Source: Leisingera thetidis (GTDB lineage: Bacteria; Pseudomonadota; Alphaproteobacteria; Rhodobacterales; Rhodobacteraceae). From it: 64,000 nucleotides of DNA. The translations under genes were made by a program, and so were the position numbers. Location of the stretch: the NCBI RefSeq assembly GCF_025857195.1, contig NZ_CP109787.1, positions 1,057,501 to 1,121,500 of the forward strand. Direction: 5' to 3'. Within the stretch, counting starts at the first letter, position 1. Each line of letters starts with the position of its first letter. The notes below the pieces were generated by a model. That model was not told where the DNA came from. It did no database searches and saw only the letters and a program-made list of their open reading frames with translations. This document shows positions 12,659 through 55,757 of the stretch, piece by piece.

Positions 12659-14325
12659 TGGGTCAGCCTCAGTTGGCGGATGGAAGTTGCGATCGAGGCG
12701 AAGGCGTCGCTGATTTCCAGCCCGTCCACATCGAAGTAATGGGAGTCGGAGCTGGCGCAATCCTGCAGCACCGACACGCCGTTGCTGGGCGCCTCGAAGC
12801 CGATGGTGTAGACGATGATGCCCTGATCCTTGGCCGCCTGGCAGATGCTGCGGGTGCGGGTATTTTTGGTCGAGTTCCCGTAATAGTCATAAACGCCGTA
12901 GTACCAGGTGCTGCGGGCGGAAGACGTGCCCATCCAGTCGGCATAGATGTCTTTGTACAAGTACTTCAGCGGCGTTTGGGCAAACAGATCAGTATAGCTC
13001 AGCCGTTCGGCAGTGCCGGATTCCTGTTTCCAACTGCAGCTGTAGCAATTCCTATAGCTGTCGGTTCCCGTGCCAAACGGGTGATCTTCCCACCGGGCGC
13101 CGTAAGGCAAATGCCAATAGTACTGGCCGCTGGACGGATTGAGTGTGGAGTATACTTCGGTTCCGTCGCTGGTGGTCGTGAACCAGACGTTGGAGTCGCC
13201 TTCGCGGTGATCGCTCTCGACATAATATTGCGATGTGTTCTGGCCGTCGGTCATCAGAACAATCACTTTGACGGTATCCGAGTCGGTGTAGTCCGACGGG
13301 CGGGCCGAGAAATCGTTCGGAACAGATGCATCCGAGCCAGTGGTCAAGGCGTTGATCGCGGGCCGGGCTGACGGGTCGAGCAGCGTTGTGCCCCATTTCA
13401 TGCCGATATCGATGGACGTATTGCCGCCGCCCCAGAGATTTTCGATGAATGTTTTGAGGACCGTCGCGTCCTTCTGGAAGGGCAGGATTGCCCGGGTCTC
13501 GTCGGTGGCGGGTTCGCAGACGGGCGATTGAACCAGGTCGCCGTTGTCGCGCCGGTCATTACTGGACCAGGGCGAAAAATGCATTGTCTGTTCCAGTGAA
13601 TCCGTTTGCGACAGGCTGGTGCTGGAGAAGTCGGAACCTGCGAAATTCACGCAGTAGGAATACTCGTGCAATTCGTTCAGATTGTATTGGTCGATCAGAT
13701 CCTCCGGCACCGAGACTTGCGTTGCGTAAGGAATGATCGAGATCGACATCTTGCCGTCCGTGGTATTGGCCACCATGGTGTCGACAAAATCCTTGGCTGC
13801 CACTTTGAGGTTGGTCAGACGGCTGTTGGAGTTCATCGAGCCGGATACATCCAGCACCATCGAGATTTCCACCCCGTCGATGCTCTCCTCGGCGCGCGAG
13901 GTTGCGTAGAGCGGCATGTCGTCGCCGCCGGCAAATTTCAGCAGGTGAGTCGGAAAAGTGGTGTCGATGGTGGCCTGCACCTTCTTGAAGCCAAGACCGG
14001 ATTCCCACCAGGGCGCCTGGTAATAGTCTTCCAGCCCCGATTTCGACAGGTAATCCAGAACCACGGCGTCGGGCGAACTCTGCTGGTCGAGGTCCGCCGC
14101 CGCCAGTGCTGCCCGGTCCAGCGTGTATTGCAGCATGGTGCGGTCACGCTCCATCCGCATCAGGTCCACTCCGATGCCGCCGACCGCCAGCATGGCAAGG
14201 AAGGTGCCGATCATCGGTTTGGCCAGCACCCCGTCCTCTTCCTGCAGGAAGCCGTTCAATTTGACCTGGCAGCGCAGCAGGAGCGGATTGCTCAGAGCTG
14301 TGGAATTCTTGTGACGCATACTCAT
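12655..14325 (-). CDS. tadG: TadG-like pilus protein with von Willebrand factor A domain
   Basis: This 556-residue protein has one N-terminal transmembrane segment (PMIGTFLAMLAVGGIGVDLM) followed by a large periplasmic VWA domain. The metal-ion-dependent adhesion site DVSGSMNSNS lies near residue 158 and VKVIVLMTDGQNTS is a second VWA strand. It is the first gene of a tadG-tadE-tadE operon; other tad genes (ATPase, flp pilin) are not in the window. The C-terminal half contains many Tyr/Ser/Trp residues and paired cysteines (NCYSCSW). Function: surface attachment through Tad pili (family knowledge). Confidence 0.88.
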   Translation of the reverse strand: MSMRHKNSTALSNPLLLRCQVKLNGFLQEEDGVLAKPMIGTFLAMLAVGGIGVDLMRMERDRTMLQYTLDRAALAAADLDQQSSPDAVVLDYLSKSGLEDYYQAPWWESGLGFKKVQATIDTTFPTHLLKFAGGDDMPLYATSRAEESIDGVEISMVLDVSGSMNSNSRLTNLKVAAKDFVDTMVANTTDGKMSISIIPYATQVSVPEDLIDQYNLNELHEYSYCVNFAGSDFSSTSLSQTDSLEQTMHFSPWSSNDRRDNGDLVQSPVCEPATDETRAILPFQKDATVLKTFIENLWGGGNTSIDIGMKWGTTLLDPSARPAINALTTGSDASVPNDFSARPSDYTDSDTVKVIVLMTDGQNTSQYYVESDHREGDSNVWFTTTSDGTEVYSTLNPSSGQYYWHLPYGARWEDHPFGTGTDSYRNCYSCSWKQESGTAERLSYTDLFAQTPLKYLYKDIYADWMGTSSARSTWYYGVYDYYGNSTKNTRTRSICQAAKDQGIIVYTIGFEAPSNGVSVLQDCASSDSHYFDVDGLEISDAFASIATSIRQLRLTQ

Positions 14326-14662
14326 CTAAACACCCCCGCCGGCTTCGGAACAGGTCAGCACGGCTTTAGCAGCGGAATTTACACTTATTAATGCGCGCCA
14401 ATGGTGGCGGAAATGGGGCGGGATTGCGCCGGAAAAGCTTCAATTGCAAGGGTTTAGGTTGTCAATTTCCAGCAATTCCCGCGGGTTGTCCCGCACTTGG
14501 AGACAATGGCCTCCCCAGAAATGGCGAATCGTGAACCTTTGGCTAAAATGCGAATCTTTTTGGCAGGGAAGGGTCAAAAAGGTCGCACTCCTTAAACATC
14601 TCTGCATAGAGTTAAGGCATCATCGGCAGCGAGTCGATGTTTGAGCACGGAGAAGATTTTAG
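14326..14662. other. Intergenic region between tadG and the glutamate dehydrogenase gene
   Basis: This 337-bp divergent spacer must hold promoters for both directions. It is more AT-rich toward 14360-14400 and 14540-14610. I see no RNA gene, no convincing inverted repeat and no small ORF with a ribosome binding site. Confidence 0.6.
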
Positions 14663-16093
14663 ATGAGCAGCCGCACAGAGCCGAGCTTCCGCGAGAGCGT
14701 GGACCTGATGTTTAACCGGGCCGTGTCCCTGATGGATCTGCCGCCGGGGCTGGAGGAGAAAATCCGGGTCTGCAATGCCACCTACACGGTTCGGTTCGGG
14801 GTGCGCCTGCGCGGCTCCATGCATACGTTCACCGGCTATCGCTCGGTTCATTCCGAACACATGGAGCCGGTCAAGGGCGGTATCCGCTATGCCATCGGCG
14901 TGAACCAGGACGAGGTCGAGGCGCTGGCGGCGCTGATGACCTACAAGTGCGCCCTGGTGGAGGCCCCGTTCGGCGGCTCCAAGGGCGGGCTTTGCATCGA
15001 CCCGCGCGAATATGATGAACATGAACTGGAGCTGATCACCCGCCGCTTTGCCTATGAACTGGCCAAGCGCGACCTGATCCATCCCTCGCAGAACGTGCCC
15101 GCGCCCGACATGGGCACCGGCGAGCGTGAAATGGCCTGGATTGCTGACCAGTACGCGCGGATGAACACCACCGATATCAACGCAAAGGCCTGCGTCACCG
15201 GCAAGCCGCTGAATGCCGGCGGCATTGCCGGCCGGGTCGAGGCCACAGGCCGCGGCGTGCAGTACGCGCTGCAGGAATTCTTCCGCCACAAGGACGACAT
15301 GGTGGAAGCAGGCCTCACCGGGCAGCTTGATGGCAAGCGGATCATTGTTCAGGGGCTCGGCAACGTGGGCTACCACGCGGCCAAGTTTCTGTCCGAGGAA
15401 GACGGCGCGCGGATCATCGGCATCATCGAAAGGGATGGCGGTTTGCTGAACCCTGGTGGTCTGGATGTGGAGGCGGTGCGCAACTGGATTGTCAAACATG
15501 GCGGCGTGTCCGGCTATCCGGACGCGCAGTTTGTCGAGAACGGCGCGGTGCTGCTGGAGGAAGAGTGCGACATCCTGATCCCGGCGGCATTGGAAGGGGT
15601 GATCAACCTGTCGAACGCCGAACGCATCAAGGCGCCGCTGGTCATCGAGGCGGCAAACGGCCCGGTAACAGCCGGCGCGGATGACGTCCTGCGCAAGAGG
15701 GGCACCGTGATCATTCCCGACATGTATGCCAACGCAGGCGGTGTGACGGTGTCCTACTTCGAGTGGGTGAAGAACCTTTCCCACATCCGTTTCGGCCGGA
15801 TGCAGCGCCGCCAGGAAGAGGCGCGCCACCAGCTGGTGATCGATGAGCTGCAGCGCCTGGACGACGTGATGGGGGATACCTGGTCGATGTCGCCGAACTT
15901 CAAGGACAAGTACCTGAAGGGCGCGGGCGAGCTGGAACTGGTGCGCTCCGGTCTCGATGACACCATGCGGGTAGCCTATCAGTCGATGCGCGAAGTCTGG
16001 CACAGCCGCGATGACGTGACCGACCTGCGCACCGCTGCCTATCTGGTGTCCATCGACAAGGTCGCCAAGAGCTATCACGCCAAGGGTCTATGA
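14663..16093 (+). CDS. Glu/Leu/Phe/Val dehydrogenase, probable glutamate dehydrogenase
   Basis: This 476-residue protein has the catalytic lysine motif APFGGSKGGLCID near residue 110, the catalytic aspartate region NVPAPDMGTGEREMAW near 145, and the NAD-binding GLGNVGYHAA near 232. It interconverts glutamate and 2-oxoglutarate plus ammonia. The MDLPPGLEEKIRVCNATYTV start is typical of the alphaproteobacterial form. A hairpin at 16120-16156 follows. Confidence 0.93.
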   Translation: MSSRTEPSFRESVDLMFNRAVSLMDLPPGLEEKIRVCNATYTVRFGVRLRGSMHTFTGYRSVHSEHMEPVKGGIRYAIGVNQDEVEALAALMTYKCALVEAPFGGSKGGLCIDPREYDEHELELITRRFAYELAKRDLIHPSQNVPAPDMGTGEREMAWIADQYARMNTTDINAKACVTGKPLNAGGIAGRVEATGRGVQYALQEFFRHKDDMVEAGLTGQLDGKRIIVQGLGNVGYHAAKFLSEEDGARIIGIIERDGGLLNPGGLDVEAVRNWIVKHGGVSGYPDAQFVENGAVLLEEECDILIPAALEGVINLSNAERIKAPLVIEAANGPVTAGADDVLRKRGTVIIPDMYANAGGVTVSYFEWVKNLSHIRFGRMQRRQEEARHQLVIDELQRLDDVMGDTWSMSPNFKDKYLKGAGELELVRSGLDDTMRVAYQSMREVWHSRDDVTDLRTAAYLVSIDKVAKSYHAKGL

Positions 16094-43483: not shown

Positions 43484-43560
43484 GCCGCCTTAGCTCAGTT
43501 GGTTAGAGCGCTGGATTGTGGATCCAGAGGTCCCCCGTTCAAGCCGGGGAGGCGGTACCA
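43484..43560 (+). tRNA. tRNA-His (GTG anticodon)
   Basis: This 77-nt cloverleaf has acceptor stem GCCGCCT with AGGCGGT, a D-arm with TTAGCTCAGTTGGTTAGAGC, an anticodon stem CTGGA-TCCAG with GTG at 43518-43520, a T-arm with GTTCAAG, and an encoded CCA. The base before the acceptor stem is T, so no G-1 is encoded, and base 73 is A. This is the aberrant tRNA-His identity known from much of the Alphaproteobacteria. The 3' part is the attachment site of the downstream island. Confidence 0.97.
43516..43560 (+). repeat. attL: 45-bp direct repeat in the 3' part of tRNA-His
   Basis: This segment, from the anticodon loop through CCA, is identical to 55713-55757. It marks the left boundary of the integrated island and leaves the tRNA intact. 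Confidence 0.95.
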
Positions 43561-43798
43561 CTAAAACCCCCTGAAAATCAAAATCTTACGCCTCGCTCAG
43601 TGGCAGGTGAATTTCTGTCAGAAGTTCGTTGTAGCCAAATTGAAGCCACACCACATTTTGTGGCTGTGTCAGATTGTCTCCATCCCAAGTCTATGGGTGT
43701 TTTTATTTTGCTTTGTTGGTTGAGTTGTTTGGAGGGATTGCAAGCAAGAAGAACTTGTAAGAGCCTTAGGCGATCATTCTTGGAAGGTTTTGAGAACT

Positions 43799-44155
43799 AT
43801 GAACATGGGAACCAAGCTTTTTGTTGTTGCTGCATTTCTTGGGGCTGCCGGCTGTTCGGTAACAGCACCTGTTGCGGCGATTAGCGAAGATGGGCACATC
43901 ATGAGGGGGCAAGCGACTGCCTCAATGCAGGCAGGGAGCTACCATGTTTCAGACGGTAAAGTGACATGCACCGGGAACTACAACCCGCTTGATACTTCAT
44001 TAACGATTCCCCTCTCAATCCTCTGCGATGACGGTAGAACTGGAATCGGCTCTGCTACGCGAACAGCAAGTGGCACTTCGGGTTCAGGTCAGTTTTCGAT
44101 GAGCGACGGTTCCCAGTGGCGGTTTGTGTTCGGTGAAGGGGCCGCGCTTTTGTAG
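43799..44155 (+). CDS. Small lipoprotein carried by the island
   Basis: This 118-residue protein starts at MNMGTKLFVVAAFLGAAGC, with a lipobox cysteine at residue 19; GGAAGG lies 11 bp upstream. The mature part contains VTCTGNYNPLDTSLTIPLSI and GRTGIGSATRTASGTSGSGQ, a beta-rich glycine pattern seen in small envelope lipoproteins. It is the only island gene on the plus strand and lies next to attL, the usual place for cargo genes expressed from the integrated state. A role in superinfection exclusion is speculation. Confidence 0.75.
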   Translation: MNMGTKLFVVAAFLGAAGCSVTAPVAAISEDGHIMRGQATASMQAGSYHVSDGKVTCTGNYNPLDTSLTIPLSILCDDGRTGIGSATRTASGTSGSGQFSMSDGSQWRFVFGEGAALL

Positions 44156-44158
44156 GCA

Positions 44159-44419
44159 CTATATGTGCAAGTTTAGAAGCTCGAGCTTGCCGATTATCCG
44201 GTCCAGGTCTTGGCGGGTGTCTGCGTTTTCTGTGCCGTATCGGTAGGCGCGGCCCACCCGCTTCAGTGCGAAAATGTCCATTGGCGAGAAGCCATGCTCC
44301 ATTAGCGTAGCTACGTGCTGCTTCGGCAGCCACTCCATCAGATCAGCGAAATAGTCACGCAGTTCCTCAAGGCTTGCGTCGTGTTCCAGAGGGCGGGGGA
44401 ATTTCAGTGGGGCGCTCAT
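44159..44419 (-). CDS. Small hypothetical protein, last gene of the head operon
   Basis: This 86-residue acidic helical protein begins MSAPLKFPRPLEHDASLEEL. Its start overlaps the stop of the head-closure-like gene (ATGA), so it belongs to the structural operon. The sequence DLMEWLPKQHVATLMEHGFS is not one I recognise; a minor head or neck role is possible. Confidence 0.65.
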   Translation of the reverse strand: MSAPLKFPRPLEHDASLEELRDYFADLMEWLPKQHVATLMEHGFSPMDIFALKRVGRAYRYGTENADTRQDLDRIIGKLELLNLHI

Positions 44420-44808
44420 ATGATTATGCTGTGCCGGATCGGTACGGCCTCATCTTGGGGTAAAGCTTTCACCCGGTACCGGACAGTTCCGCGAAGTGCG
44501 TCAGCGCCCAGCACTTCCAGAATCTTGTGAAATTGGCCTTCCCACAGAATGAGGTGCTCGGAATTTGGATCGTTTGCGGTAATGACCGTCAGGGCGGCGT
44601 CACCGTCATATGGCTGATGCAGGGTGAAACGGTCTTCCTGCGTGAAGTCCCTGAGTGCATAGGTGTCTTCAGCGAGGTCATACTGAAACTCTCCTGAAGC
44701 ATCCAAGACCGCAGCACCGGATTCTTCCACGGCGACCTTATAGACGGACGCGGCTTTCCAGGCCGGATTGTGGCGGGCTGCGCGTTTCAGGGCGGTGGCA
44801 TAGCTCAC
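44416..44808 (-). CDS. Putative phage head-closure / head-tail joining protein
   Basis: This 130-residue protein is coupled on both sides by 4-bp overlaps to the portal gene and the small downstream gene. HLILWEGQFHKILEVLGADA followed by RGTVRYRVKALP suits the small beta-barrel head-closure proteins of HK97-type phages. The call rests on that pattern and on position after the portal and connector genes. Confidence 0.55.
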   Translation of the reverse strand: MSYATALKRAARHNPAWKAASVYKVAVEESGAAVLDASGEFQYDLAEDTYALRDFTQEDRFTLHQPYDGDAALTVITANDPNSEHLILWEGQFHKILEVLGADALRGTVRYRVKALPQDEAVPIRHSIII

Positions 44809-45863
44809 TGTGCCGCCTCCTTCTTTGCGGGCGCTGCTGGAATGCTCACACCTTGCCAGCCCACCAGTTCCATTGCCGTTTGAACCGGCACCCCAGCGTT
44901 CACCAGAACACCCACAGCACGGGCACGGCCCGCCACGTCGCTGGACATCATGGCATCCAAGCTTAGGCGGGACACTCCCAGCTTTTCCTTGAGTTCGGGC
45001 ATTATTTGCCTTGCCAGCGGATCAACGGTTTGCAGCGCAAACAGCCTGTAAGCTTCCCGCATGGCCCCTGCATTGCCGTTGGACGTGACCAGAGCGGGCG
45101 GAATGCCGCAGGCCGTCAGAATGCGCTCGTGCAGGCTATCTGTTGCCGGATTCAAATCCATGCGCTGCATGTCGGGTGTAAGGTCCACCCGCTTCAGTTC
45201 TGAGCGGTCGCCCCCAGTATGGGTGGCGAAGTCCGCTTTGGACGTAACAACCGCCAAGGCCCCGTTTCGGAGGCCCTGAAGGGCTTTGCCCTGCTGTTCT
45301 TCGGGAATTGTCGCTGGCATAGGCAGCAGCCCTTTACCGGCCATCGGCAGCGCGCTGGAAATCGCCTGTTCAATCTCCGCCATGAGCGTGGGGGACAGGC
45401 CCATAAGCTGGAATGGACTGCGGCCCTTCCAGGGCGTTGCCGGGTCAGGGTTGATCCTGAGCTTCAGCACTTCAGGTTCCAGTGCCCGCACTGTCTCTGT
45501 GGTGTTTACTCGCGCGATGTGAAGGTGATAGCGTCCGCTGCCCAGTTCATCCCAATACGCCACCCGCACCAGTTCCAGGGAGTTGGCGTGAACCCGGATG
45601 TGCCAGCAGCTTTCGCCCCTTAGACACAGGTCCAAGCCGATAGCCGCCAGAATGTCGGCTGTCAGCACGTCTGGAATAGGCTCAGGTGAGAGCATAGCGA
45701 AGGCGCGGCTCCAAGCGCCTATGCAGGTGCCAACCGTGGCTGACAGAGCCGCTGAGCCATCCGAGACAAGGTTGCGTCGGCGCAGGTCGATGTATTGCGG
45801 CGTCAGGCCTGTTTGCAGGCTGCGCTGTTCAGTTTCGGGTTTCTTACGGAAAGGCCAGATCAT
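44805..45863 (-). CDS. Phage portal protein (HK97 family)
   Basis: This 352-residue protein forms the dodecameric vertex ring through which DNA enters the capsid. Evidence: NPDPATPWKGRSPFQLMGLS in the middle, the RSELKRVDLTPDMQRMDLNP segment, and LHERILTACGIPPALVTSNG typical of HK97 portals. At 352 residues it is shorter than most phage portals (about 400-420). It is coupled to the connector upstream and the head-closure gene downstream. Confidence 0.88.
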   Translation of the reverse strand: MIWPFRKKPETEQRSLQTGLTPQYIDLRRRNLVSDGSAALSATVGTCIGAWSRAFAMLSPEPIPDVLTADILAAIGLDLCLRGESCWHIRVHANSLELVRVAYWDELGSGRYHLHIARVNTTETVRALEPEVLKLRINPDPATPWKGRSPFQLMGLSPTLMAEIEQAISSALPMAGKGLLPMPATIPEEQQGKALQGLRNGALAVVTSKADFATHTGGDRSELKRVDLTPDMQRMDLNPATDSLHERILTACGIPPALVTSNGNAGAMREAYRLFALQTVDPLARQIMPELKEKLGVSRLSLDAMMSSDVAGRARAVGVLVNAGVPVQTAMELVGWQGVSIPAAPAKKEAAQ

Positions 45864-46423
45864 GGCTTGCGCACCTCGCTTGCCAGCAGGGCCGCAGCAC
45901 CGGAGCCGTACATTACGCCCATGAGGCTTTCACGGGTAAACCCGCTGTCGCCTGCGTTCTGGGATTTGAACTCCCGCCGCGCAGGAGAGTGAATCAACTG
46001 ATAGCAGGCGAGGTTGAATACGGCCTGCTGCACATGCTGCGGCGGCGTGCCAGGATCAATGGTGCCAACTTGGGTGAGGCGATACAGCAGAGGACCTTCC
46101 AGATCGACCAGGCCCAGAGCGGGGATATACGTTTCCGAATGTGGCACCCAATCCGATTGGCTCCATACTTCCACCGTTAAGGCGACAGGGAAAGGATGCC
46201 GGGGCCAGGTGTAGAGTTCCGGCCCTCGGATTGTCAGCACCACCTGACCGGCTGTCACCGGATAATAGCACCGGCCAGTGAATGCTTCTGCCTGCTGCCA
46301 AGCTGCCGCGATCATTTTCAGCGCGTCAGACTCAAGAGTTCCGGCTTCAAGAGCTACGTAAGGGGCTTGGGGAACAGAGGGCACATCGCCCCTGGTGAAG
46401 TTGGTTTCGATGGATTCGATCAT
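45860..46423 (-). CDS. Phage gp6-like head-tail connector protein
   Basis: This 187-residue protein (MIESIETNFTRGDVPSVPQA) has the features of gp6-like connectors, helical proteins that extend the portal: AAAWQQAEAFTGRCYYPVTA near residue 40 and QHVQQAVFNLACYQLIHSPA near 130. The ATG overlaps the protease stop (ATGA at 46420-46423); a TTG nine bases upstream is less likely. Confidence 0.75.
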   Translation of the reverse strand: MIESIETNFTRGDVPSVPQAPYVALEAGTLESDALKMIAAAWQQAEAFTGRCYYPVTAGQVVLTIRGPELYTWPRHPFPVALTVEVWSQSDWVPHSETYIPALGLVDLEGPLLYRLTQVGTIDPGTPPQHVQQAVFNLACYQLIHSPARREFKSQNAGDSGFTRESLMGVMYGSGAAALLASEVRKP

Positions 46424-47010
46424 GGCAGCCAAATTCCTCCGGTACTGGATTGAGCGTTTGCCCGGTCCCAGGCGCGCAATTCAGCTTTGCTGGCCTCATA
46501 GGCAGGACGGGTCACCAGACTGAGTTCGTAAAGCAGCAGGGCTGACAGGCGGCGGATCATGACGCCGGGATTTCCTGGCTCAGGTTCCAGCGTTTCCGCC
46601 CCCGGCACTACGTCCTTGGGTGGCACCCGGAAGCCGGGCGACACGCCTTTGACCAAGCCAGCGCCCAGCATAGCCAGGGCGTCTGTTACATGGGTCGCGC
46701 GCTCCGCACCCTCAGGAATGGTGGCGATGAACTCCAAAAAGGCTTCAGTGTCCTTCAGTTCCAGGCTGCCCGCCTTGCGGCTGGCTAACGGCTTGTCGAA
46801 GCTGTGGCCCATCAGCAGGTTCACTTCGCGGTCGGGGTCTTTCAGCGTGAAGTCAAACGCCCCCGGAAGAATGGTCTCTTTCCTGACGGTCCCGCGATCC
46901 GCCAGCACCGCCAAGGCGTTATAGGGGAAGCGGCCCGCAATGACGGGTCGCCCCCCAAGCTGCCGCACCTCTAGGTCAGATGCAGCCCAGATGGCGCGCT
47001 GTTCCATCAT
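46420..47010 (-). CDS. HK97-family prohead protease
   Basis: This 196-residue serine protease trims the capsid N-terminus during head maturation. The catalytic histidine is in LLMGHSFDKPLAS near residue 68 and the serine in LVKGVSPGFRV near 120. It starts in the major capsid stop codon (ATGATG). Protease located after, rather than before, the capsid gene is unusual compared with HK97. Confidence 0.9.
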   Translation of the reverse strand: MMEQRAIWAASDLEVRQLGGRPVIAGRFPYNALAVLADRGTVRKETILPGAFDFTLKDPDREVNLLMGHSFDKPLASRKAGSLELKDTEAFLEFIATIPEGAERATHVTDALAMLGAGLVKGVSPGFRVPPKDVVPGAETLEPEPGNPGVMIRRLSALLLYELSLVTRPAYEASKAELRAWDRANAQSSTGGIWLP

Positions 47011-48266
47011 GCGCGGTCCTGCACGCCGGTCAGCTTGAAGTAGTGGGTTGCTGTCCGCTGAATCAGCACATCGAGGAAGGCAAACATTGTCAGCGCTACC
47101 TTGCCTGTTTTGCTTTCCGAATACGGGTCAACGATCAGTTCCGGGCTGCCCCAGGTCGGCACATAGGCGTTGTTGCTGCCAGCACCGAAATACACCGTGG
47201 ACGCACCCTTGTCGGTGGCGTCACGCGCACCACGGGCCGAAACCTGAGAGGACCACAGCATTCCGAAGCTTGCGGATTTCAGCCGGTCCAACTCGGAAAC
47301 AGCAGTGCCGCTCACCAGCGTGTCAGCAAGTGTCTGGTGAACAATCGGGGCACCCGCAATCCGTACCAGTGCAGGGTCGCTCAGCTTGGCGGTTTCCTGA
47401 ATTTCGGTTGCCCGCAGCAGGAATTCCGAGAAGCTGGCAACGTCGTCCAGGGCGGTTGTGCGCCCGCCGGTCAGCACGGTTTCAAAACCGGCAGGCTGTT
47501 CATCAGCCCCCGTGCCCCGGAAAATCGCCAGGTCAATGCCTTCGCGCATCACTTCGGAAAGGTCGCGGCGCAAGATGGACTGCAGGGCGCTGTTCTGGCG
47601 GATGGCCTGCCGGGTCAGCAAATACCGGCCCGTTGCAGTGTGGATTGCAGGAGATGCGCTGGTGGTGGTCAGTGCCGCAGCATCCGCACCGGAGCCTTCA
47701 GCCACCCACGACAGCCCGGTGCCGCCAGTGATTTCCGGGAAGGTGGGAGTACCCGTAACTTGGAGCACATTCACCCCGAAGCGGCCCGCCGCAGAGGTTT
47801 CGAAGAACCGTTCCAGTGCGTTCATCACCGGGCGGCTGGCAAGCTCCTGCGATGTGCCTGCGCTGGCGTCAGTTGCTACGTCCGCCCGCTGTTCCAGGGC
47901 TTCCCAGGGGAAACGGATGCCCTTTTGCCCTTGGCCGTGGCGCTGCTCAAGTTCCTGGCTCACTTCGGCTTCCCGGCCTGCCAGCGGTTTACCGTCCACT
48001 TGCGCCGCGATAACGGCGCTTAGATCGAAGGATCGGCACTCCCGGTCAAAGTCGGTTGCGGCCTTGTCCGGCTCCTTAATCTGTTCGCGCTCCGCGTCTT
48101 CCAGCAACAGGGCAGCCCGCAGTTCAACTTCCGCGCCTTCATATTCATCTGCCAGTTTCCGCAGTTCCGTGCGGCCATCGTCGCTAATTTCGTCCGCTTT
48201 CTGGATTGCGGCCATGCGCTCGCGGCGCTTCGACTGCGCCAGTTGGATTTCTTGGGATTTCAGCAT
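47007..48266 (-). CDS. Phage major capsid protein (HK97 fold)
   Basis: This 419-residue protein has a charged coiled-coil N-terminal region of about 110 residues (LRKLADEYEGAEVELRAALL) acting as internal scaffold, then the HK97 capsid domain with GVNVLQVTGTPTFPEITGGT, SWVAEGSGADAAALTTTSAS, RYLLTRQAIRQNSALQSILR and FRGTGADEQPAGFETVLTGG. GAAGGAA precedes the start, 49 bp after the HNH gene. Confidence 0.93.
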   Translation of the reverse strand: MLKSQEIQLAQSKRRERMAAIQKADEISDDGRTELRKLADEYEGAEVELRAALLLEDAEREQIKEPDKAATDFDRECRSFDLSAVIAAQVDGKPLAGREAEVSQELEQRHGQGQKGIRFPWEALEQRADVATDASAGTSQELASRPVMNALERFFETSAAGRFGVNVLQVTGTPTFPEITGGTGLSWVAEGSGADAAALTTTSASPAIHTATGRYLLTRQAIRQNSALQSILRRDLSEVMREGIDLAIFRGTGADEQPAGFETVLTGGRTTALDDVASFSEFLLRATEIQETAKLSDPALVRIAGAPIVHQTLADTLVSGTAVSELDRLKSASFGMLWSSQVSARGARDATDKGASTVYFGAGSNNAYVPTWGSPELIVDPYSESKTGKVALTMFAFLDVLIQRTATHYFKLTGVQDRA

Positions 48267-48315
48267 TTTTCAAGTTCCTTCAGAGAGTTGTGCAATTGTT
48301 GGCGCAAAGTGCGGC

Positions 48316-48678
48316 TCAAGGCGGCATCCCTCTGTTCAGGCCCTCAGGCAGAACTCCCGCCATCGCCAGGAAAAGCTTGCGGCCTGGCACATTGCTCCGC
48401 TTGACCGGCTTGGGGCCTTTGCGGCGTTTTCCTTCCCAGCGTTCAGCGTTCGATTTCTTCGAGTGGCAGGGCTGGCAGAGCCATTGCAGATTGGATTGGT
48501 CAAATTCGCTTAGGCCGTGTTCCTGGCATTTGGAGCGGGGAATGATGTGGTCTGCCTCGCCATGCATTCCGAGATAGCGGCCACAATGCTGGCACCTGAA
48601 TCCTGCCCGCAGAGCTACCGCTTGCCGGGTCTCATGCTTCCAGGCGGAGCGGTCCAGAATTGTGCGCCCCACGCCCAT
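48316..48678 (-). CDS. HNH endonuclease (packaging-associated)
   Basis: This 120-residue protein starts at MGVGRTILDRSAWKHETRQA; its ATG overlaps the terminase stop (TGATG). Zinc-binding CQHCGRYL and LCQPCHSKKS frame the nuclease motif ADHIIPRSKC, with the asparagine in SNLQWLC. Such HNH proteins act with large terminase at cos sites in HK97-like packaging. An in-frame start 63 bp upstream inside terL is possible but less likely. Confidence 0.88.
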   Translation of the reverse strand: MGVGRTILDRSAWKHETRQAVALRAGFRCQHCGRYLGMHGEADHIIPRSKCQEHGLSEFDQSNLQWLCQPCHSKKSNAERWEGKRRKGPKPVKRSNVPGRKLFLAMAGVLPEGLNRGMPP

Positions 48679-50210
48679 CAGAGCACCTCCACGGAGTATT
48701 CGGGCAGCACCGTCTCCCGTGCCCGCAGCAGGGCGGAGCACGCCAGACAGAGGCTCTGTGCAACGTCGATGCGGGCATGAAGGTGCGATTTGTCTAACTG
48801 CGTTGCTCCGGTGGCCGAAACGCGCACATCAGCTTCGCCGATAGAGCCTTCCAGCAGAATGGAGCGCTGCATTTGGACGGCCCCGGCCAGGAACAGGCGG
48901 CGGGTGGCGCGAATGTCCGCATCGCCATCCTTCGGGCCTGTGCCTCTATAAATGATGGGCCAGGAAATCTTGGCGCGGGCCAAGGCGGTTTCGAATTCGT
49001 GCTGGCGATATCTGTCACAGGAGACAGAAGCCACCGGATGGTTGCCGATGCGGGCAATCAGCTCCGGCAGGAATTCTTGAAGGTCCGACACGCTGCCGGA
49101 TGTTTCGATCAGATCACCGGCAAGGGCCGCGCGATGCCAAAGGTCGCCCACCATGTCTCGCTTACCTCTGGCAACCAAGTCCAGGTCAGCCCCAGGAAAT
49201 GCCCCCAGCACCTTCAGCAAGCCGGAGTGCTCATAGGCGATGGTGGCGGCTGTCATGGATGCACTGCCCCCCAGATCAATGCCCACATGCACCGGCTCAT
49301 CGGGTTCCGGTTGCGGGTCGTCGCGGTAGGACTTGGCAAGGGTGGCGTAGTCCAGCAGCAGTTGCCGGGTGGGGGACAGAGGTTTGTTCAGGTGCCAGAC
49401 TTCGAACTCGGTCAAGCTACCGGATTGCAGGGCCTTTCCGTGGGCGTCTTGCAGGAAGCGGCGGGACTTGATTGCCCCAAGGCCAGGGTTGGCTTTTTGC
49501 CATGTTGCCGGAGCTGACGGATCGTCCTCTTTCTCGGCTGCATATAGCGTAACGTGGGTCCGCTTGTCGGGATTGTCGATCAGCTCGTTATATGCCGGGC
49601 TGTCACCCCTGGTGCCGGTCAGGATCAGTTGGCCGTCCTTGGTCGCCAATGCGTCGAAGAACGCGGTGATCAATTCGCCCTGGTTCTTGGCGATCAAGCC
49701 GGTTTCGTCGATCACGGCTAGATCGAGATCCATGCCGTGACCCTGTTTAATGTCGCCCGTGGAAAGGTAGACCTCACCCTTGCCCAGAACCAGTTTGCCG
49801 GGGCGCGGATTGAAACGGTGGTCAAGCTCGTCCTCGCGCTCGACAAACTCCATGAGGTTCAGCATGGCCGTCGAGATGTAGCCCGCATGTTTTTCGGTCG
49901 GAGCGGCTACGGCGGCGGTGAAATGCGGGATGTAAAGCGGACTGTCCGGGCAGAGGTGCCCAAGCAGCACAGCACCAAGCAGGGTGGATTTTCCCAGCTT
50001 TCGGGGCGTTGAAAAAATGCAGGTTCGAAAGGTCGGGCCGTCAAGGTCACGGCTCAGAAAGGCCCTGACGAAATCCTCTTGGAAGGGGTGCAGGGTAAAG
50101 GGCTTGCCCCTGCTGATGCCGGATGGGATGACGAAGGCATCAGCCAGCCACTCCCCAAACAGGGAAGTTCGGTCTTTCTTCGGTTTCGCCAGCCGCAACG
50201 GCATGGGCAA
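48678..50210 (-). CDS. terL: Phage terminase large subunit
   Basis: This 510-residue packaging motor has an N-terminal ATPase and C-terminal nuclease. The Walker A region is CIFSTPRKLGKSTLLGAVLL near residue 68, Walker B is DLDLAVIDETGLI near 165, and LILTGTRGDSPAYN is the coupling motif. The nuclease begins with VHVGIDLGGSASMTAATIAY near 310. It is coupled to HNH. No small-terminase gene is recognisable upstream. Confidence 0.92.
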   Translation of the reverse strand: MPMPLRLAKPKKDRTSLFGEWLADAFVIPSGISRGKPFTLHPFQEDFVRAFLSRDLDGPTFRTCIFSTPRKLGKSTLLGAVLLGHLCPDSPLYIPHFTAAVAAPTEKHAGYISTAMLNLMEFVEREDELDHRFNPRPGKLVLGKGEVYLSTGDIKQGHGMDLDLAVIDETGLIAKNQGELITAFFDALATKDGQLILTGTRGDSPAYNELIDNPDKRTHVTLYAAEKEDDPSAPATWQKANPGLGAIKSRRFLQDAHGKALQSGSLTEFEVWHLNKPLSPTRQLLLDYATLAKSYRDDPQPEPDEPVHVGIDLGGSASMTAATIAYEHSGLLKVLGAFPGADLDLVARGKRDMVGDLWHRAALAGDLIETSGSVSDLQEFLPELIARIGNHPVASVSCDRYRQHEFETALARAKISWPIIYRGTGPKDGDADIRATRRLFLAGAVQMQRSILLEGSIGEADVRVSATGATQLDKSHLHARIDVAQSLCLACSALLRARETVLPEYSVEVL

Positions 50211-50361
50211 AGTTCCTCATCGCTGAGAACCTTTTGCCCTCCATGGCTGGGTCCTAGTTTTCGCTAGATACGGCTTCGGAGACTGCCTCAGATCTGAGAG
50301 TAGGTCAATGCCACGAACTGGTGCATGTTTTGCGCCACTCAGGTTCAGCGCCTCTTTGGAG

Positions 50362-51150
50362 TTACTTTGCTTTGTCCCGCCTTTCGATAGCGTCCAGCGC
50401 CCCTTGCGGAAGAGACGCATACATCTCGTCCACGTGTTTAGGTTCCGAAATCATCTTCTCAGCAATGATATTAAGCAGCTTAAACAATGTCTCAGCCGTT
50501 GCGCGATCATCTTTGAGGTCAATTTCCCCTGGATGCACGGCGTTGTTTCCTATGACGCGAACTACGTCTAGTGCCTGTTGCACGCGAACGTTTAACCCCT
50601 TTGCAACGAGGGCCTTGATATCCGCATTGATGTTTTCGCCGGGTTCTCCGAGTTCTTTGCAGAGCTTTTGAATGGCGAGGCGTATCAAAGCCGCAGCTCC
50701 GCGTGGTGACAGACTCAATATAGAACTTGCCTCATCGTAGTCGCGCCGGATTTCTGGCGGAAGGTCTGGATTGGGCGGCGGCCCTTCACCCTGTTTTGGG
50801 TAAAGCAGATTGTCATAGACCCAGATGGTAACATCCTTGCAGTTGAAGCATTCGGCAGCACTGACGTTCCACAAGTGATACGGAGCGTATTCTGAACCTC
50901 CACGCCTCTCGATGAAGGGCAAACCTTTGCCCATTTTGTTTGCCCATGCCGTCATTTGATCCCTAGCGTCTTCATCTTTCAGATCTTTGAAGTCGAAGTT
51001 CTTTGCGCCGGCGCTATCTACAATTATCGGCAGAGGTTTTTTGGCGCTTAGTGGATCAGCGTAAACCTTGAGCCAGTGCTGTTTGGCTAGCGCACCGCAA
51101 TGCGGACAGTTGAAGGCGGTTTCTTTCGCAGAAGGGGGGACGTACTTCAT
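50362..51150 (-). CDS. DUF4145 domain protein with zinc-ribbon motifs, island cargo
   Basis: This protein of about 262 residues starts at MKYVPPSAKETAFNCPHCGA (AGGA 11 bp upstream; a longer frame begins at 51210). Two CxxC pairs, NCPHCGA near residue 14 and CFNCKD near 100, look like a zinc ribbon. The C-terminal part LSPRGAAALIRLAIQKLCKE, ENINADIKALVAKG and ALDVVRVIGNNAVHPGEIDL is DUF4145, a HEPN-like helical domain often found in restriction or defence proteins. It lies between regulatory and packaging modules, where islands carry variable genes, so an anti-phage role is plausible but unproven. Confidence 0.78.
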   Translation of the reverse strand: MKYVPPSAKETAFNCPHCGALAKQHWLKVYADPLSAKKPLPIIVDSAGAKNFDFKDLKDEDARDQMTAWANKMGKGLPFIERRGGSEYAPYHLWNVSAAECFNCKDVTIWVYDNLLYPKQGEGPPPNPDLPPEIRRDYDEASSILSLSPRGAAALIRLAIQKLCKELGEPGENINADIKALVAKGLNVRVQQALDVVRVIGNNAVHPGEIDLKDDRATAETLFKLLNIIAEKMISEPKHVDEMYASLPQGALDAIERRDKAK

Positions 51151-51521
51151 CTTGCATCCTGGAAAATTGCGTTTCCGTCGGATGAAACACCTCGCAGAAC
51201 AGATATTCAACCATTGCGCGACAGTGTGGTAGGAAAATTTGGTCCCTTGAGGCGATAGCCCGCCTCCGCTCCGATAGGTTGCGTGGGTGGGTTCACCTCC
51301 GGCAGGGTTCCCTTGTTATGTGGTGATCTGCGCACCGATTGCAGCATATTTTGCGCCTGCTGCGGGGCTTGCTGGAAGCTGCCCGCGCCACACTGGCGGC
51401 TTGTCCAGTGATGAACCGCAAACGCTAGCTCATCGTGGCGCAGGCAAAGGGCGATGACCCTCGGAGACGCTGACAGTCCTCGGTGCCAGCAATAGTGATA
51501 GTATCATTTGCAACCAAATGA
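51151..51521. other. Intergenic region of the island with an inverted repeat at its end
   Basis: This 371-bp gene-free stretch probably includes the promoter of the DUF4145 gene. ATCATTTG-CAAC-CAAATGAT (51503-51522) is a perfect inverted repeat touching the end of the RHH-like gene. No RNA gene is recognised. Confidence 0.5.
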
Positions 51522-51722
51522 TCAATAGGGCTTGCTCCGCTTCTTGCCGTAATTATCGGACTGCCCCGGTAGCATCCCGGCTTGTCGTGCTCTCTCACGG
51601 ATCAATCGGGAAACGAAAGTGGCACGGGGCAGACCAGACGCTTTCACCATATTGTTCAGCAGGTTTCGGTCAGCCAGTTCGAGGTTGATTTGCGTTAGGC
51701 CGTCGCGGCGGTTTTTTGGCAT
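51522..51722 (-). CDS. Small putative ribbon-helix-helix DNA-binding protein
   Basis: This 66-residue basic protein begins MPKNRRDGLTQINLELADRN. The beta-strand LTQINLEL followed by two helices (RNLLNNMVKASGL, RATFVSRLIRERARQ) is the pattern of MetJ/Arc-type ribbon-helix-helix proteins. It may regulate the island from the inverted repeats on either side of it. Confidence 0.65.
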   Translation of the reverse strand: MPKNRRDGLTQINLELADRNLLNNMVKASGLPRATFVSRLIRERARQAGMLPGQSDNYGKKRSKPY

Positions 51723-51851
51723 CGGTCGGTTCCTTTCGAAGTTAGCGTGTTTGCTACGCGTCGCGCGCGTTCTCATCTTTTCCCTGTTCCCAGGGGAATC
51801 TCCTGTAGCTGGTCCGTGGCTTGTTCCTGACCGCAGGACAGGAGGAAGCCA

Positions 51852-51935
51852 TCATCAGGTAATAACTGTCCTCTTCTTTCTTTGTCCCCCTGGAATAAGT
51901 TATTATCTGATGATGTATCCATACAGGGGACAAAG
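51852..51935. repeat. Interlocked inverted repeats, candidate origin, operator or packaging site of the island
   Basis: Arms of 16 bp (51852-51867 TCATCAGGTAATAACT and 51898-51913 AGTTATTATCTGATGA, one mismatch) enclose a 30-nt spacer. A second inverted pair, CTTTGTCCCC (51880-51889) and GGGGACAAAG (51926-51935), has one arm in that spacer, so the two cannot pair at the same time. They lie between the HTH gene and the RHH-like gene. Confidence 0.6.
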
Positions 51936-51948
51936 AAGATCCGGACAC

Positions 51949-52575
51949 TTACTGTTTCAGGGGCATTGCGGGCCACTTTCCTTTCTCCATCAGATGCATT
52001 CGCCATGCTTCAAACGCGACCTTCGCGTACCGCCGCAGGGTGGGAATATGAGGGTGCTTGAAGAACATTTTCCTGGTGTCTTTGCCCTCAGATTGTTCCA
52101 CTGCGACCTCTAGGCCTACGCCTGTCATGAACCATTCCCATCCTTCGGGGCTGATGACGTACTTGAAAATCTCAAGTTCATGCCTGTCCGGCCAAGTCTC
52201 AGCTAGCCCGACCAAACAGCCGAATTGGTTCGGGTTAACACTTTGCTTGGTCCGTTTGCGGAATATCCCCGCCATCACCTGAGCAGTTGTGCGCGGTGTT
52301 GGCTTGCCCGGTTCACCAACTCGCAAAAGCGTTGCTCTGACGCCTTCCACTTGTGTGGTGGTGGTTTGGATTGGCGGCAATTTTATGAGGCGGCGTATTG
52401 TCCGAATATGCACGCCCAACAAATCAGCCCATTCCTCTTGCGACAGTATCGCCCAGTAGTGCCCGTCGAACTCTTGCCCCTCATGAGCGGTGATTTCTTC
52501 GATGTGCCCACACAATCTCTCCAGCTTTTGAGTTCTGTCTTTGCGAGGTTTGCAGGTGCTTTCTCCGAGAGCCAT
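51949..52575 (-). CDS. HTH protein of the island, possible replication initiator
   Basis: This protein of about 208 residues starts at MALGESTCKPRKDRTQKLER, 10 bp after the AlpA-like gene. LSQEEWADLLGVHIRTIRRL near residue 45 is a helix-turn-helix. The C-terminal half (ATWPDRHELEIFKYVISPEGW-like region, then HIPTLRRYAKVAFEAWRMH) is helical and not recognised. In comparable islands the gene after alpA is a replication or regulatory protein; this is inference from position. Confidence 0.6.
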   Translation of the reverse strand: MALGESTCKPRKDRTQKLERLCGHIEEITAHEGQEFDGHYWAILSQEEWADLLGVHIRTIRRLIKLPPIQTTTTQVEGVRATLLRVGEPGKPTPRTTAQVMAGIFRKRTKQSVNPNQFGCLVGLAETWPDRHELEIFKYVISPEGWEWFMTGVGLEVAVEQSEGKDTRKMFFKHPHIPTLRRYAKVAFEAWRMHLMEKGKWPAMPLKQ

Positions 52576-52585
52576 CGCCCAGCCC

Positions 52586-52795
52586 TCAAGCGATGCGGCT
52601 AGATGACAGGTACATGTCCAAGTCAGACACGTTGTAAAGTATCGTGCGCCGCCCAAAGCGCAGGAACGGGACTTTCGGTGGCGTCCCTGACTGACCGGCT
52701 TCAAAGCGATCACGCTCTAGGAAGGTCTTTGGCACTCCGAGATAGTCGGCGGCTTTTTGGGTGTTCAGTCGGGCGGGCAGTTTCTTTGTGAGCAT
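52586..52795 (-). CDS. AlpA/excisionase-like helix-turn-helix protein
   Basis: This 69-residue protein begins MLTKKLPARLNTQKAADYLG. The winged-helix pattern AADYLGVPKTFLERDRFEAG, then FLRFGRRTILYNVSDLDMYL, is that of AlpA/Xis-type regulators that switch on integrase or act in excision in P4-like elements and PICIs. The IS insertion 50 bp upstream (ending at 52846) probably separates it from its original promoter. Confidence 0.8.
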   Translation of the reverse strand: MLTKKLPARLNTQKAADYLGVPKTFLERDRFEAGQSGTPPKVPFLRFGRRTILYNVSDLDMYLSSSRIA

Positions 52796-52836
52796 CGCTC
52801 ATCCTCCACGGCTCGTTTCAATCTGGTGCGAGAGCA

Positions 52837-52845
52837 CCGCTCATG
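52837..52845. repeat. Target-site duplication, left copy
   Basis: CCGCTCATG, identical to 54230-54238, directly flanks the IS. Confidence 0.9.
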
Positions 52846-54229
52846 GAGCTATTGTCAAATCTGGTGTTTGGGCGGTCATCAAGCGGCGGCCTGATCTTGT
52901 GTTGATGGCTTGATGCCGTTGATGAAATCGACGCCTTCGATGACGTCTGCGAGATGAGCGAAGCCGCGCAGCTTGCGCCAGCTTTTCTCAGCGCATTGGC
53001 CGAGCTTGAACATCATGTGGAGCATCCCGTCCCGGCTCAGGCATCCCTTGGTGCGTTTCGTGCGGTGGCGGATGGTGGCGAACGCGCTCTCGATGGGATT
53101 TGACGTCCTGATGCTCTGCCAGTGCTGGGCGGGGAAGTCGTAGAAGGTCAGCAGTTCGTCGCGGTCCTTGACCAGGCATTCGACCGCCTTGGGGTATTTC
53201 GCTTCGTAGGTGCCGACGAACAAGTCAAACTCCTTGCGGGCATCTTCACGGGTCTCGGCCTGCCAGATGTCGTGCAGCGCCTTCTTTGCCTTGGGCTGAC
53301 TGCGCTTTGGCAGATAGTTCAGAACGTTGCCCGTCTTATGCACCCAGCAGCGCTGTTGCCGGGTGGAGGGATAGACTTCCTCAAGAGCCGCCCAAAATCC
53401 CATGGCCCCGTCGCCGACCGCCAGTTTCGGAGCGTTGAGGCCGCGGCTTTTGAGCCCCAGCAGGACCTCGCGCCAGCTTTGGGTGCTTTCCCGCACGCCG
53501 TCCTCGATGGCCAGGAAATGCTTCTCGCCGCGCGCATTGACGCCGATCACGACCAGGGCGCAGAGCCGGTCATCTGTGCCGCGCAAGCCGCTGTAGATCC
53601 CGTCGGCCCAGACATAGACCCATTCATCACGGCCAAGATCGGCCTTGCGCCAGGCGTCGTACTCCTCCGCCCATTGCGCCTTCAGCCGCGCCACTGTCTT
53701 GGCCGAGAAGCCGGTCGCGTCCGGGCCCAGGAGCGCCTTGAGTGCTGCGCCCAACTCGCCCGTAGAGATGCCCGGGAGGTACAGCCAGGGCAGCGCCGCC
53801 TCGATCGACTTCGCCTTGCGGACGTAAGGCGGGACCAGCGCCGAGCGGAACGCCACAGGCGCGCCCGTCTTCGAGCGCACCTTCGGGATCTGCACCGTGA
53901 CCGGGCCGATCCCGGTCTGCACGGCGCGTTCGGGGTGGTGTCCGTTCCGAACAACCGCGGCCCGGCCCTCCGGGGTGCGGTGTTTCGCAAATTCGGCCAG
54001 GAAAGCGTCCAGCTCCGCCTCGACCGCCGTTTGCAGAAGCTCCCGCGCGCCCTTGCGCAGAAGATCCGTCAGCGGGTCCGACACGGTGTCTCGACCGGCA
54101 AATTCGATGATGGTAGCGTCATTCATGGTGGTGCGTCCTCGATGGTTGGTGGTTTGTTTGGCGACATCAAACCAACCAGATGCACCGCCAGCTTTCAAAC
54201 CGCCCAAACACCAGATTCAGCCATAGCTG
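52846..54229 (-). mobile_element. Complete IS256-family insertion sequence (1,384 bp)
   Basis: The element has 31-bp terminal inverted repeats (52846-52876 and 54199-54229; 26 of 31 positions match, the inner 19 perfectly), one transposase gene, and a 9-bp target duplication CCGCTCATG on both sides. Intact ends and duplication suggest a fairly recent insertion. It lies between alpA and int. Confidence 0.93.
52879..54126 (-). CDS. IS256-family (mutator-type) transposase
   Basis: This 415-residue DDE transposase starts at MNDATIIEFAGRDTVSDPLT. The probable catalytic residues are the aspartates in YVWADGIYSG and KLAVGDGAMGFW and the glutamate in TSNPIESAFATIRHRT. QQRCWVHKTGNVLNYLPK is the typical conserved segment. 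The frame is complete with no internal stop, so it is probably active. A longer frame starts in the right inverted repeat region. Confidence 0.95.
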   Translation of the reverse strand: MNDATIIEFAGRDTVSDPLTDLLRKGARELLQTAVEAELDAFLAEFAKHRTPEGRAAVVRNGHHPERAVQTGIGPVTVQIPKVRSKTGAPVAFRSALVPPYVRKAKSIEAALPWLYLPGISTGELGAALKALLGPDATGFSAKTVARLKAQWAEEYDAWRKADLGRDEWVYVWADGIYSGLRGTDDRLCALVVIGVNARGEKHFLAIEDGVRESTQSWREVLLGLKSRGLNAPKLAVGDGAMGFWAALEEVYPSTRQQRCWVHKTGNVLNYLPKRSQPKAKKALHDIWQAETREDARKEFDLFVGTYEAKYPKAVECLVKDRDELLTFYDFPAQHWQSIRTSNPIESAFATIRHRTKRTKGCLSRDGMLHMMFKLGQCAEKSWRKLRGFAHLADVIEGVDFINGIKPSTQDQAAA

Positions 54230-54238
54230 CCGCTCATG
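54230..54238. repeat. Target-site duplication, right copy
   Basis: CCGCTCATG, identical to 52837-52845, directly follows the IS. Confidence 0.9.
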
Positions 54239-54341
54239 AACGCGGCGGGAAATGTCCCGCTCCCTCCGTGGACCATCGCGAACAATGTCAATCGTAGTGC
54301 AAGCAAGTGCCATAACAATACTTTGTTGGCGGTCGTATGCC

Positions 54342-55559
54342 TTACTGGCTCTCGATGTGAGCCAGTTTGCCATTCCCGGTAGAGATACCCGCTAGCTTAT
54401 CAATCATATCGCTGACTTTCTGGACGTAGGGGCGAAGGGCTTTGGGGTCATTCCCCGTTAGGTAGTGGGCGAGAGTCACGTCGCCTGCCGATGAATGGTT
54501 CAGCATCCTTTTCAAGAGGCTGTAAGGCGTCCCGGCGCGTTCGGCCTGAATAGCGTAGGTGCGCCGAAGATCGTGAATCGTTATTTCACAGGAGAGGCTC
54601 TCACGGAGGCGCGTAAGGCTCTTTCTCGGATCGTAGCGGGTGGAGCTGGCAAACACAGCTGTGGCCCCTAGCGCGGCCTCCTTGCGCCTCCGAAGTAATG
54701 CCCGCACTTGGTCCGACATGGGCAGCACCAGTTCATTGCCGTTCTTTGCAATCTCTGCGCGGATCCTGAACGTTCCCGCTTTCATGTTCACATCTTCCCA
54801 GGTCAGGGTTGCAGCTTCGTTTCGGCGCAGTCCGGTGCGCAAGATTAGCTCCATGAAATCAGGAAATACGAGGTTGTGTGACTGGGACAGTGCCTCAAAG
54901 AAGGCCGGAAACTGATCATCGGTCAGATGGTTCAGGCGGCGAGACGGCTTGTGCCATCGTTTTAGGTCAGAAAGGCGCTGACACGGGCACTCGGGCAGGG
55001 TGTAGTTGCCAGCGTCCGTTGCTGTGTAAGCACGAGCGTAGCGATACACTGCACGGAACACTCGAAACGCGCCGTTGGCAACATGGGGGCTGTGTTCTTT
55101 GGTCAGCTTGTCGAAGCGCCTGACAACTGCGGTAGGGGTGATGGCCTTCAACTCTTTCGCTAGCCAGTCCGGAAAGTTGGCTTTCAACCGCGCTCGGTAC
55201 TCTGCGGCGGTGGCGGGTTTCAGGTCACGGGATTTTAGGTATTCGTCCAAGGCCTCCAAGAGGGTAATGGAGCGGGCGCGTGCCTCCTGCTTTTCCGCGT
55301 TTATATCGATGCCGGAGGCCATCTTGCCTAGAACCTTCTTCGCTTCTCGGCGCGCTTCCTGAACGCTGAGCACATCAGAACGGCCAATCGTTACCCGGCG
55401 TTTCCTGCCCAGTACTCGACCTTCCGCAATGTAGGTCTTGGACGCCTTGGTAAGCCGAATGCCGAAACCCCGGAGCGCGGTGTCCCAGACGATTTTGGAG
55501 CCTTCGCCGGGGTTGGAGAGTTCGGAGATTGTCTTCGCGTTGAGCGATGATTGTGTCAT
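54342..55559 (-). CDS. int: Tyrosine recombinase/integrase of the island
   Basis: This protein of about 405 residues starts at MTQSSLNAKTISELSNPGEG, preceded by AAAGGTCGGACC; a frame-compatible ATG lies 24 bp upstream. The N-terminal arm-binding domain (GFGIRLTKASKTYIAEGRVL) is followed by a core-binding domain and the catalytic domain, with Arg in LRTGLRRNEAATLTW, His-x-x-Arg in TIHDLRRTYAIQ, His in MLNHSSAGDVT and Tyr in LAHYLTGND. It lies 154 bp from attR and directs recombination at tRNA-His. Confidence 0.95.
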   Translation of the reverse strand: MTQSSLNAKTISELSNPGEGSKIVWDTALRGFGIRLTKASKTYIAEGRVLGRKRRVTIGRSDVLSVQEARREAKKVLGKMASGIDINAEKQEARARSITLLEALDEYLKSRDLKPATAAEYRARLKANFPDWLAKELKAITPTAVVRRFDKLTKEHSPHVANGAFRVFRAVYRYARAYTATDAGNYTLPECPCQRLSDLKRWHKPSRRLNHLTDDQFPAFFEALSQSHNLVFPDFMELILRTGLRRNEAATLTWEDVNMKAGTFRIRAEIAKNGNELVLPMSDQVRALLRRRKEAALGATAVFASSTRYDPRKSLTRLRESLSCEITIHDLRRTYAIQAERAGTPYSLLKRMLNHSSAGDVTLAHYLTGNDPKALRPYVQKVSDMIDKLAGISTGNGKLAHIESQ

Positions 55560-55712
55560 GGTCCGACCTTTCGTTGAAGCCATATTGTCGCCAAATGTAG
55601 GCGGGGCACGAAAGCGAGCGAAAACCTTGTACGCATCTAAGTCAATGTTTTGTAACGGATAATGAAAGAATCGCGACTTATGGCAAAGAACGGCAAACAC
55701 AATATGTAGGGT

Positions 55713-55757
55713 TTGTGGATCCAGAGGTCCCCCGTTCAAGCCGGGGAGGCGGTACCA
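55713..55757 (+). repeat. attR: copy of the 3' part of tRNA-His
   Basis: This 45-bp segment is identical to 43516-43560 and marks the right boundary of the island. The gap to 56016 holds only a doubtful 65-residue ORF without ribosome binding site. Confidence 0.95.

Follow-up and report, generated by a model that had tools for sequence, protein, structure and literature searches.

The window examined here, a stretch of 64,000 nucleotides from contig NZ_CP109787.1 of Leisingera thetidis, contains at positions 43513-55757 an integrated island which is very probably a chromosomal phage satellite, forming a small head of its own and working like a capsid-forming phage-inducible chromosomal island (cf-PICI). 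It belongs to a widespread group of tail-less, head-building islands of nearly equal length in Rhodobacteraceae. A first-pass annotation, made from the sequence alone, had proposed a cf-PICI-like element. Within what was scanned, we found neither tail or lysis genes belonging to the element nor relatives embedded in full-length prophages, the relatives examined being free-standing islands between attachment (att) repeats; the proposal is thus supported.

The boundaries of the island were analyzed first at the level of its repeats. As annotated, direct repeats of tRNA-His stand at both ends: attL is the 3' 48 nt of the tRNA-His gene (43484..43560, plus strand), the sole tRNA gene found by ARAGORN in the window, and attR (55710..55757, plus strand) is a copy identical at 47 of 48 positions. 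This repeat is the longest direct repeat in the region among the matches listed. GC content is about 0.65 outside the island and 0.53-0.62 inside, the insertion sequence (IS) stretch excepted; a second dip (0.57-0.59) is observed outside the island, at 12001-15000. The right flank of the island was then compared with 31 genomes. It matched in 18, host included, and 14 loci from the 17 congener matches were examined. All 14 show the empty site: the tRNA-His is intact, the left flank aligns as far as the first base of this gene, and the right flank comes after it (in congeners, conservation is lacking over the first 245-280 nt of the right flank seen in the window). The island was thus inserted at tRNA-His and is missing from those 14 loci. 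A tyrosine integrase (54342..55559, minus strand, 405-aa start taken; PF00589, E-value 2.7e-21; PF13356, 1.7e-11; phrog_1, 5.3e-53) lies at one end, as annotated, namely the right end adjoining attR, its reading frame being open to 55763, through attR. The island is confirmed as a genuine discrete mobile element with integrase and att sites.

The annotated size of 12.2 kb holds as far as the att repeats are concerned. It includes a non-ancestral IS which had been missed (52846..54229, minus strand, placed by flank comparison; transposase 52879-54207, PF00872, 4.3e-65, a family which we take to be that of IS256). The IS is flanked by a 9-nt target duplication and is present at 10 further places in the host genome with 99-100% identity, which indicates recent activity. 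The island measures 12,197 bp with the IS and 10,804 bp (10.80 kb) without it; its head genes are kept open despite the insertion.

On the minus strand, the island reads integrase, IS, 69-aa helix-turn-helix (HTH) protein, 254-aa HTH protein, 84-aa open reading frame (ORF), DUF4145 protein and terminase large subunit (TerL), followed by the head block: HNH, capsid, protease, 187-aa, portal, 130-aa and 86-aa proteins. Pfam and PHROGs searches identified five annotated functions, all on that strand: an HK97-type TerL (48678..50204; phrog_9, 1e-46; PF20441, 6.8e-12), which shares at most 27% identity with phage records (best 40 of 148); an HNH endonuclease, probably packaging-associated (48316..48678; PF01844, 1.3e-7; phrog_589, 4.3e-19); an HK97-family major capsid protein (47007..48266; PF05065, 2.7e-13; phrog_617, 8e-26); an S78 prohead protease (46420..47010; PF04586, 2.3e-17); and a portal protein (44805..45863; PF04860, 2.2e-13). 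The connector and head-closure genes that had also been announced gave no match to any hidden Markov model, and their assignment comes from other sources. The 187-aa protein (45860..46423, minus strand) is probably an adaptor-like head-tail connector, judging by its place and by its profile likeness to the protein found between protease and portal in the second clade of relatives described below (hhalign probability 97.2, E 2.8e-11). The 130-aa protein (44416..44808, minus strand) is a head-closure protein, or stopper, by predicted fold: the AlphaFold model has a pLDDT of 88.6, and its top Foldseek/VIA matches are phage necks and stoppers. The operon is closed by an 86-aa protein (44159..44419, minus strand; phrog_23161, 0.0046) with a cluster of homologues in 19 loci, the window included.

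In agreement with the annotation, Pfam and PHROGs searches with the proteins of the window element gave no match to a tail, tape-measure, baseplate or lysis family. The scan was extended to the non-core ORFs of at least 110 aa of the window and 31 relatives (150 of 151, one overlapping the window tRNA being dropped; the 58 ORFs of 70-109 aa, out of 209, lay outside it). No tail or lysis family was present among the matches listed (25 of 83 for PHROGs, 25 of 30 for Pfam); PHROG families with three members or fewer fall mostly outside these, and a few elements may carry a tail gene. The families listed are integrases, primases or helicases, replication initiators, head closure, head-tail adaptor, regulators and others. 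The longest non-core ORF (774 aa) is a primase, and ten other long ones comprise six primases or helicases, one integrase and three without match. By comparison, in the Roseobacter phages CRP-406 and CRP-831 the tail and tape-measure genes are found within about 4 kb of the capsid gene. A separate observation concerns a protein of about 216 aa, not found in the window, which is present in 16 loci (L012:7115-7765 and 15 others), mostly between HNH and capsid and sometimes before TerL; it matches phrog_6367 (E 3e-4) and is perhaps a neck or tail-completion protein.

The distribution of the relatives was examined through the capsid. The search returned 11 IMG/VR contigs at 70-88% identity (5.6-13.3 kb), more by profile, and loci in seven named records: Tateyamaria, a Rhodobacterales metagenome-assembled genome (MAG), Pseudotabrizicola, a Rhodobacteraceae MAG, Jannaschia, Pelagimonas and Paracoccus, the last match being of 36 residues with no cassette seen at the locus. 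The clade-1 profile (E 1e-30), which catches clade 2 too, and the clade-2 profile (E 1e-60) each matched 38 of 394 family genomes. Their union is 42 of 394, assuming that both searches drew the same 394 genomes and counting partial capsids (G110, G252, G262, G325) and the broken capsid of G053. Relatives, sought in related genomes as the annotation had suggested, are thus found in these 42, mostly at tRNA genes. In a class sample of 385 genomes there was one carrier outside the family (G670, with TerL, HNH, capsid, connector and portal at the locus), and in a phylum sample of 398 genomes (E 1e-15) there were five matches, all within the class and one outside the family (G1128).

The 66 capsids with good coverage (61 distinct, including that of the window) form two clades of 24 and 37 members, with supports of 0.995 and 0.99. 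Median identity is 62-63% within clades and 29% between them. Each clade excludes the five tailed-phage capsids used in the tree. The clades are not sisters: their common node (0.707) also includes the five phage capsids, so that one or two origins of taillessness are both compatible with the tree. In loci of either clade that span the block, the order TerL-HNH-capsid-protease-connector-portal is conserved, with occasional missed genes and extra ORFs. Within clades, distances correlate modestly between capsid and TerL (r 0.66 and 0.22), and the cassettes therefore seem to exchange genes; the values for capsid and portal are 0.32 and 0.50, and the high overall r mostly reflects the two-clade split. 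Several loci bear on the history of individual islands. L012 (an IMG/VR contig) and L024 (a Jannaschia island) are recent relatives, with capsids 99% and integrases 93% identical. Genome G213 carries islands of both clades, and in L023 (3-16082) a clade-2-type set of capsid, protease and portal adjoins a clade-1 island at the same tRNA-Glu. A second integrase lies beside the island in L030/L068 and in L032.

Att repeats of at least 40 nt place relatives at tRNA genes for Asn, Pro, Thr, Cys, Leu, Lys and Phe, and shorter ones point to Glu, Ser, Arg, Tyr, Met and perhaps tmRNA (L088, L090 and L095 lie near tmRNA). Three clade-2 loci (L070, L073, L077) share a common chromosomal neighbourhood without a nearby tRNA, with repeats of 28, 31 and 19 nt, and probably use a non-tRNA attachment site. 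The length between repeats, measured with the longest repeat at the tRNA, or across the cassette for four added loci, is 9,317-11,147 bp in 31 relatives and 9,645-11,276 bp in the four others. For these 35 islands the mean is 10,426 bp and the standard deviation (SD) 471 bp, with sizing repeats of 13-23 nt in 15 of the first 31 and of 17-31 nt in the four added, so that single cases may be chance. For G221, which has two equal repeats giving 9,436 and 9,645, the latter was used. The size set does not include the window (12,197), G239 (12,085), L102 (a 12-nt repeat spanning 4,471 with one copy inside the cassette), the loci without size (L013, L019, L020, L025, L034, L083, L088, L089, L097, L104 and G044, the last corresponding to L085/L116), L068, L103, L105, or IMG/VR contigs other than L031 and those without size. 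The 20-kb stretches used limit the detectable island length to roughly 12-16 kb. The measured islands above 12 kb are those of the window and G239, both with transposon-like genes; in G239 these are internal ORFs of lengths which we take to be IS66-like. No transposase was present among the matches listed for the relatives' ORFs, the 35 not being individually checked for IS. In clade 2 the integrase is found at one end or the other and primases are variably present, yet total length barely changes.

Such a narrow length class would result from a packaging limit and is not expected from random deletion. In the pairs tried, the ratio of nonsynonymous to synonymous substitution (dN/dS) was 0.04-0.20 for capsid, TerL, portal and connector, 0.08 for the integrase and 0.28 for the HTH protein; dS is high (1.2-1.9) in the window's own pairs, for which dN/dS is rough. 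The core genes are under purifying selection. These two results bear on the possibility of a decayed prophage whose tail, replication and lysis genes were lost by deletion. HK97-type head genes are typical of prophages, activity of the island is predicted from its genes, the window copy carries an IS, and one relative, L025/L083 (Pelagimonas MAG, G053), is degraded: only a C-terminal piece of its capsid was matched, with internal stops, and it retains homologues of protease, connector, portal and stopper. However, near-constant length in the relatives, despite differing accessory genes and integrase positions, together with dN/dS far below 1, disfavours decay. Both capsid clades, about 29% identical, are without recognised tails, and congeners have empty sites. 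In CRP-406 and CRP-831, tail genes come within about 4 kb after the capsid, whereas the matches listed for the islands include no tail family. We consider a decayed prophage improbable.

Under the satellite reading, we infer excision, replication, self-packaging, capsid size, use of a helper's tail and release by the helper's lysis. Upon entry or induction of a helper, the integrase and the 69-aa HTH protein, AlpA/excisionase-like (52586..52795, minus strand; PF12728, 6.4e-4), would excise the island from the tRNA-His 3' end. The excised island would replicate, and a small capsid would be built from its own capsid protein and protease. TerL and HNH would cut unit-length DNA and pack it via the island's own portal; adaptor and stopper would close the filled head, and the helper's tail would dock on the stopper. 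The particle would then inject its DNA, and the island would integrate at tRNA-His. For the AlpA-like protein, a cluster of homologues is found in 12 loci including the window, and these come after the integrase in relatives.

Several observations weigh against the satellite reading. No clear small terminase (TerS) was found in the window element with PHROGs or Pfam: the HNH protein matches phrog_4581 (terminase small subunit, 2.1e-9) through its HNH part only and well below its HNH families, and a TerS assignment among the proteins without family was set aside. No primase was recognised there with the same databases, whereas clade-2 relatives have primases. The AlpA-like match reaches 20.4 bits for a Pfam cut-off of 27. 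For the stopper, Foldseek gives moderate scores (TM to query of 0.35-0.54 over the best 20 rows, with two hits below E 0.001). With its IS, the window copy exceeds the longest of the 35 sized relatives by 0.9 kb and may at present be unpackageable. Finally, no resident helper prophage was found in the host with portal, tape-measure and TerL families, a weak negative, as the genome search with phrog_2 missed the island's own TerL, which phrog_2 does match. Genomes with islands are not enriched in the tail family PhageMin_Tail (2 of 42; Fisher p 0.75 if all 42 were sampled; 27 of 386 family genomes have it). A resident PhageMin_Tail helper was set aside, since this family has no match in the host genome.

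The portal-family search of the host returned the island and a cluster of the gene transfer agent (GTA) type, located outside the window at G000:C1:2033001-2053000 (L120). Its capsid matches the GTA capsid structure 6tb9 (Rcc01687, E 1.7e-175), Rcc presumably standing for R. capsulatus. No similarity of the island to this cluster was seen below E 0.02, and an origin from the resident GTA was set aside. The likeliest source of tails is a visiting phage. That the families searched reveal no tail donor but the GTA in the host, and that no association with PhageMin_Tail prophages exists, would also suit a self-sufficient tail-less virus, whose heads leave and enter cells without any phage tail. 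Stoppers sit between head and tail in tailed phages, and the retention of stopper-like and adaptor-like proteins, along with the lack of any recognised lysis or entry gene, makes such a virus quite unlikely. Least probable of all is a domesticated GTA-like head locus kept for host benefit, which would fit the GTA cluster of the host and the purifying selection on core genes, but not the integrase, the att repeats, the empty sites in congeners, the many integration sites or the lack of similarity to the resident cluster.

The satellite reading can be compared with known systems. The cf-PICIs are reported to carry capsid, protease, portal, connectors, both terminase subunits and HNH, and to need only tails (PMC10690885). 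Their mean size is 14 kb, and their primary hosts are given as Enterobacteriaceae, Pasteurella, Morganellaceae and Gram-positive groups, alphaproteobacteria being absent from that list (PMC10803314). The present islands resemble them in being integrated, in having an integrase, a putative AlpA-like gene and their own capsid, protease, portal, connectors, TerL and HNH, and in lacking recognised tail or lysis genes; they differ in their size of about 10.4 kb, in the lack of a clear TerS and in occurring, within the genomes sampled, almost exclusively in one family, Rhodobacteraceae. The capsid of the E. coli cf-PICI is reported to group in trees with that of the R. capsulatus GTA (PMC12846349). 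In our searches the four-chain entry PDB 9gyi matches the GTA capsid, and neither island capsid profile matches it. We presume this entry to be the E. coli cf-PICI capsid, an attribution which is unconfirmed. The cf-PISP TG54 of Vibrio crassostreae has similar head genes, among them those for adaptor, closure, HNH and terminases, and no tail genes, but is an episome without integrase, whereas the window island is inserted at a tRNA; that study describes two satellite-plasmids, of 15.8 and 11.1 kb (PMC13230959). The Mulch and Flayer satellites of Streptomyces phages likewise have their own capsid and packaging genes, and differ by their Streptomyces hosts, virulent helpers and direct terminal repeats, one lacking an integration module (PMC10690885). 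Marine PICMIs are also small integrated satellites, but are described as having no capsid remodelling genes and no identifiable packaging genes, concatemers of helper-genome size being packaged (PMC10803314). Rhodobacterales GTAs share with the island an HK97-type head, a stopper of similar predicted fold and the same host, without the sequence similarity sought above. Unlike the island, GTAs encode a tail of their own and are not known to have an integrase or att sites.

Titles and opening lines of abstracts in the open-access literature gave no such satellite in Rhodobacterales or Alphaproteobacteria, which is not proof of absence from print. The group adds to a known satellite strategy an alphaproteobacterial branch, whose two deep clades occur in about one in ten of the family genomes sampled, and suggests that head-making satellites had a further origin. 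From such uniform lengths a small capsid of defined size is predicted. If capacity is scaled as T^1.5 from HK97 (T=7, 39.7 kb), a T=3 shell would hold 11.1 kb and a T=4 shell 17.1 kb, and T=3 is our simple guess. The presence of a GTA in the same host makes the question of the tail donor testable in culturable bacteria.

The remaining genes of the island were also considered. The 254-aa HTH protein (51949..52713, minus strand, the true start being probably later) has weak matches (phrog_57, 0.028) and homologues in L020, L021, L023 and L035; it is a candidate replication initiator or TerS. For the 84-aa protein (51522..51776, minus strand) no family was matched. Defence cargo was set aside, since PADLOC on 150 of the relatives' ORFs gave ten families with one or two members each, at E of 2e-5 or above. 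The DUF4145 protein (50362..51150, minus strand; PF13643, 1e-15; phrog_1305, 5.6e-30) is a possible accessory gene. Between the head operon and attL, on the strand opposite to that operon, lies a lipoprotein-like ORF (43790..44155, plus strand), so classed by eye, with no Pfam match and one PHROG at 0.057, which is possibly cargo.

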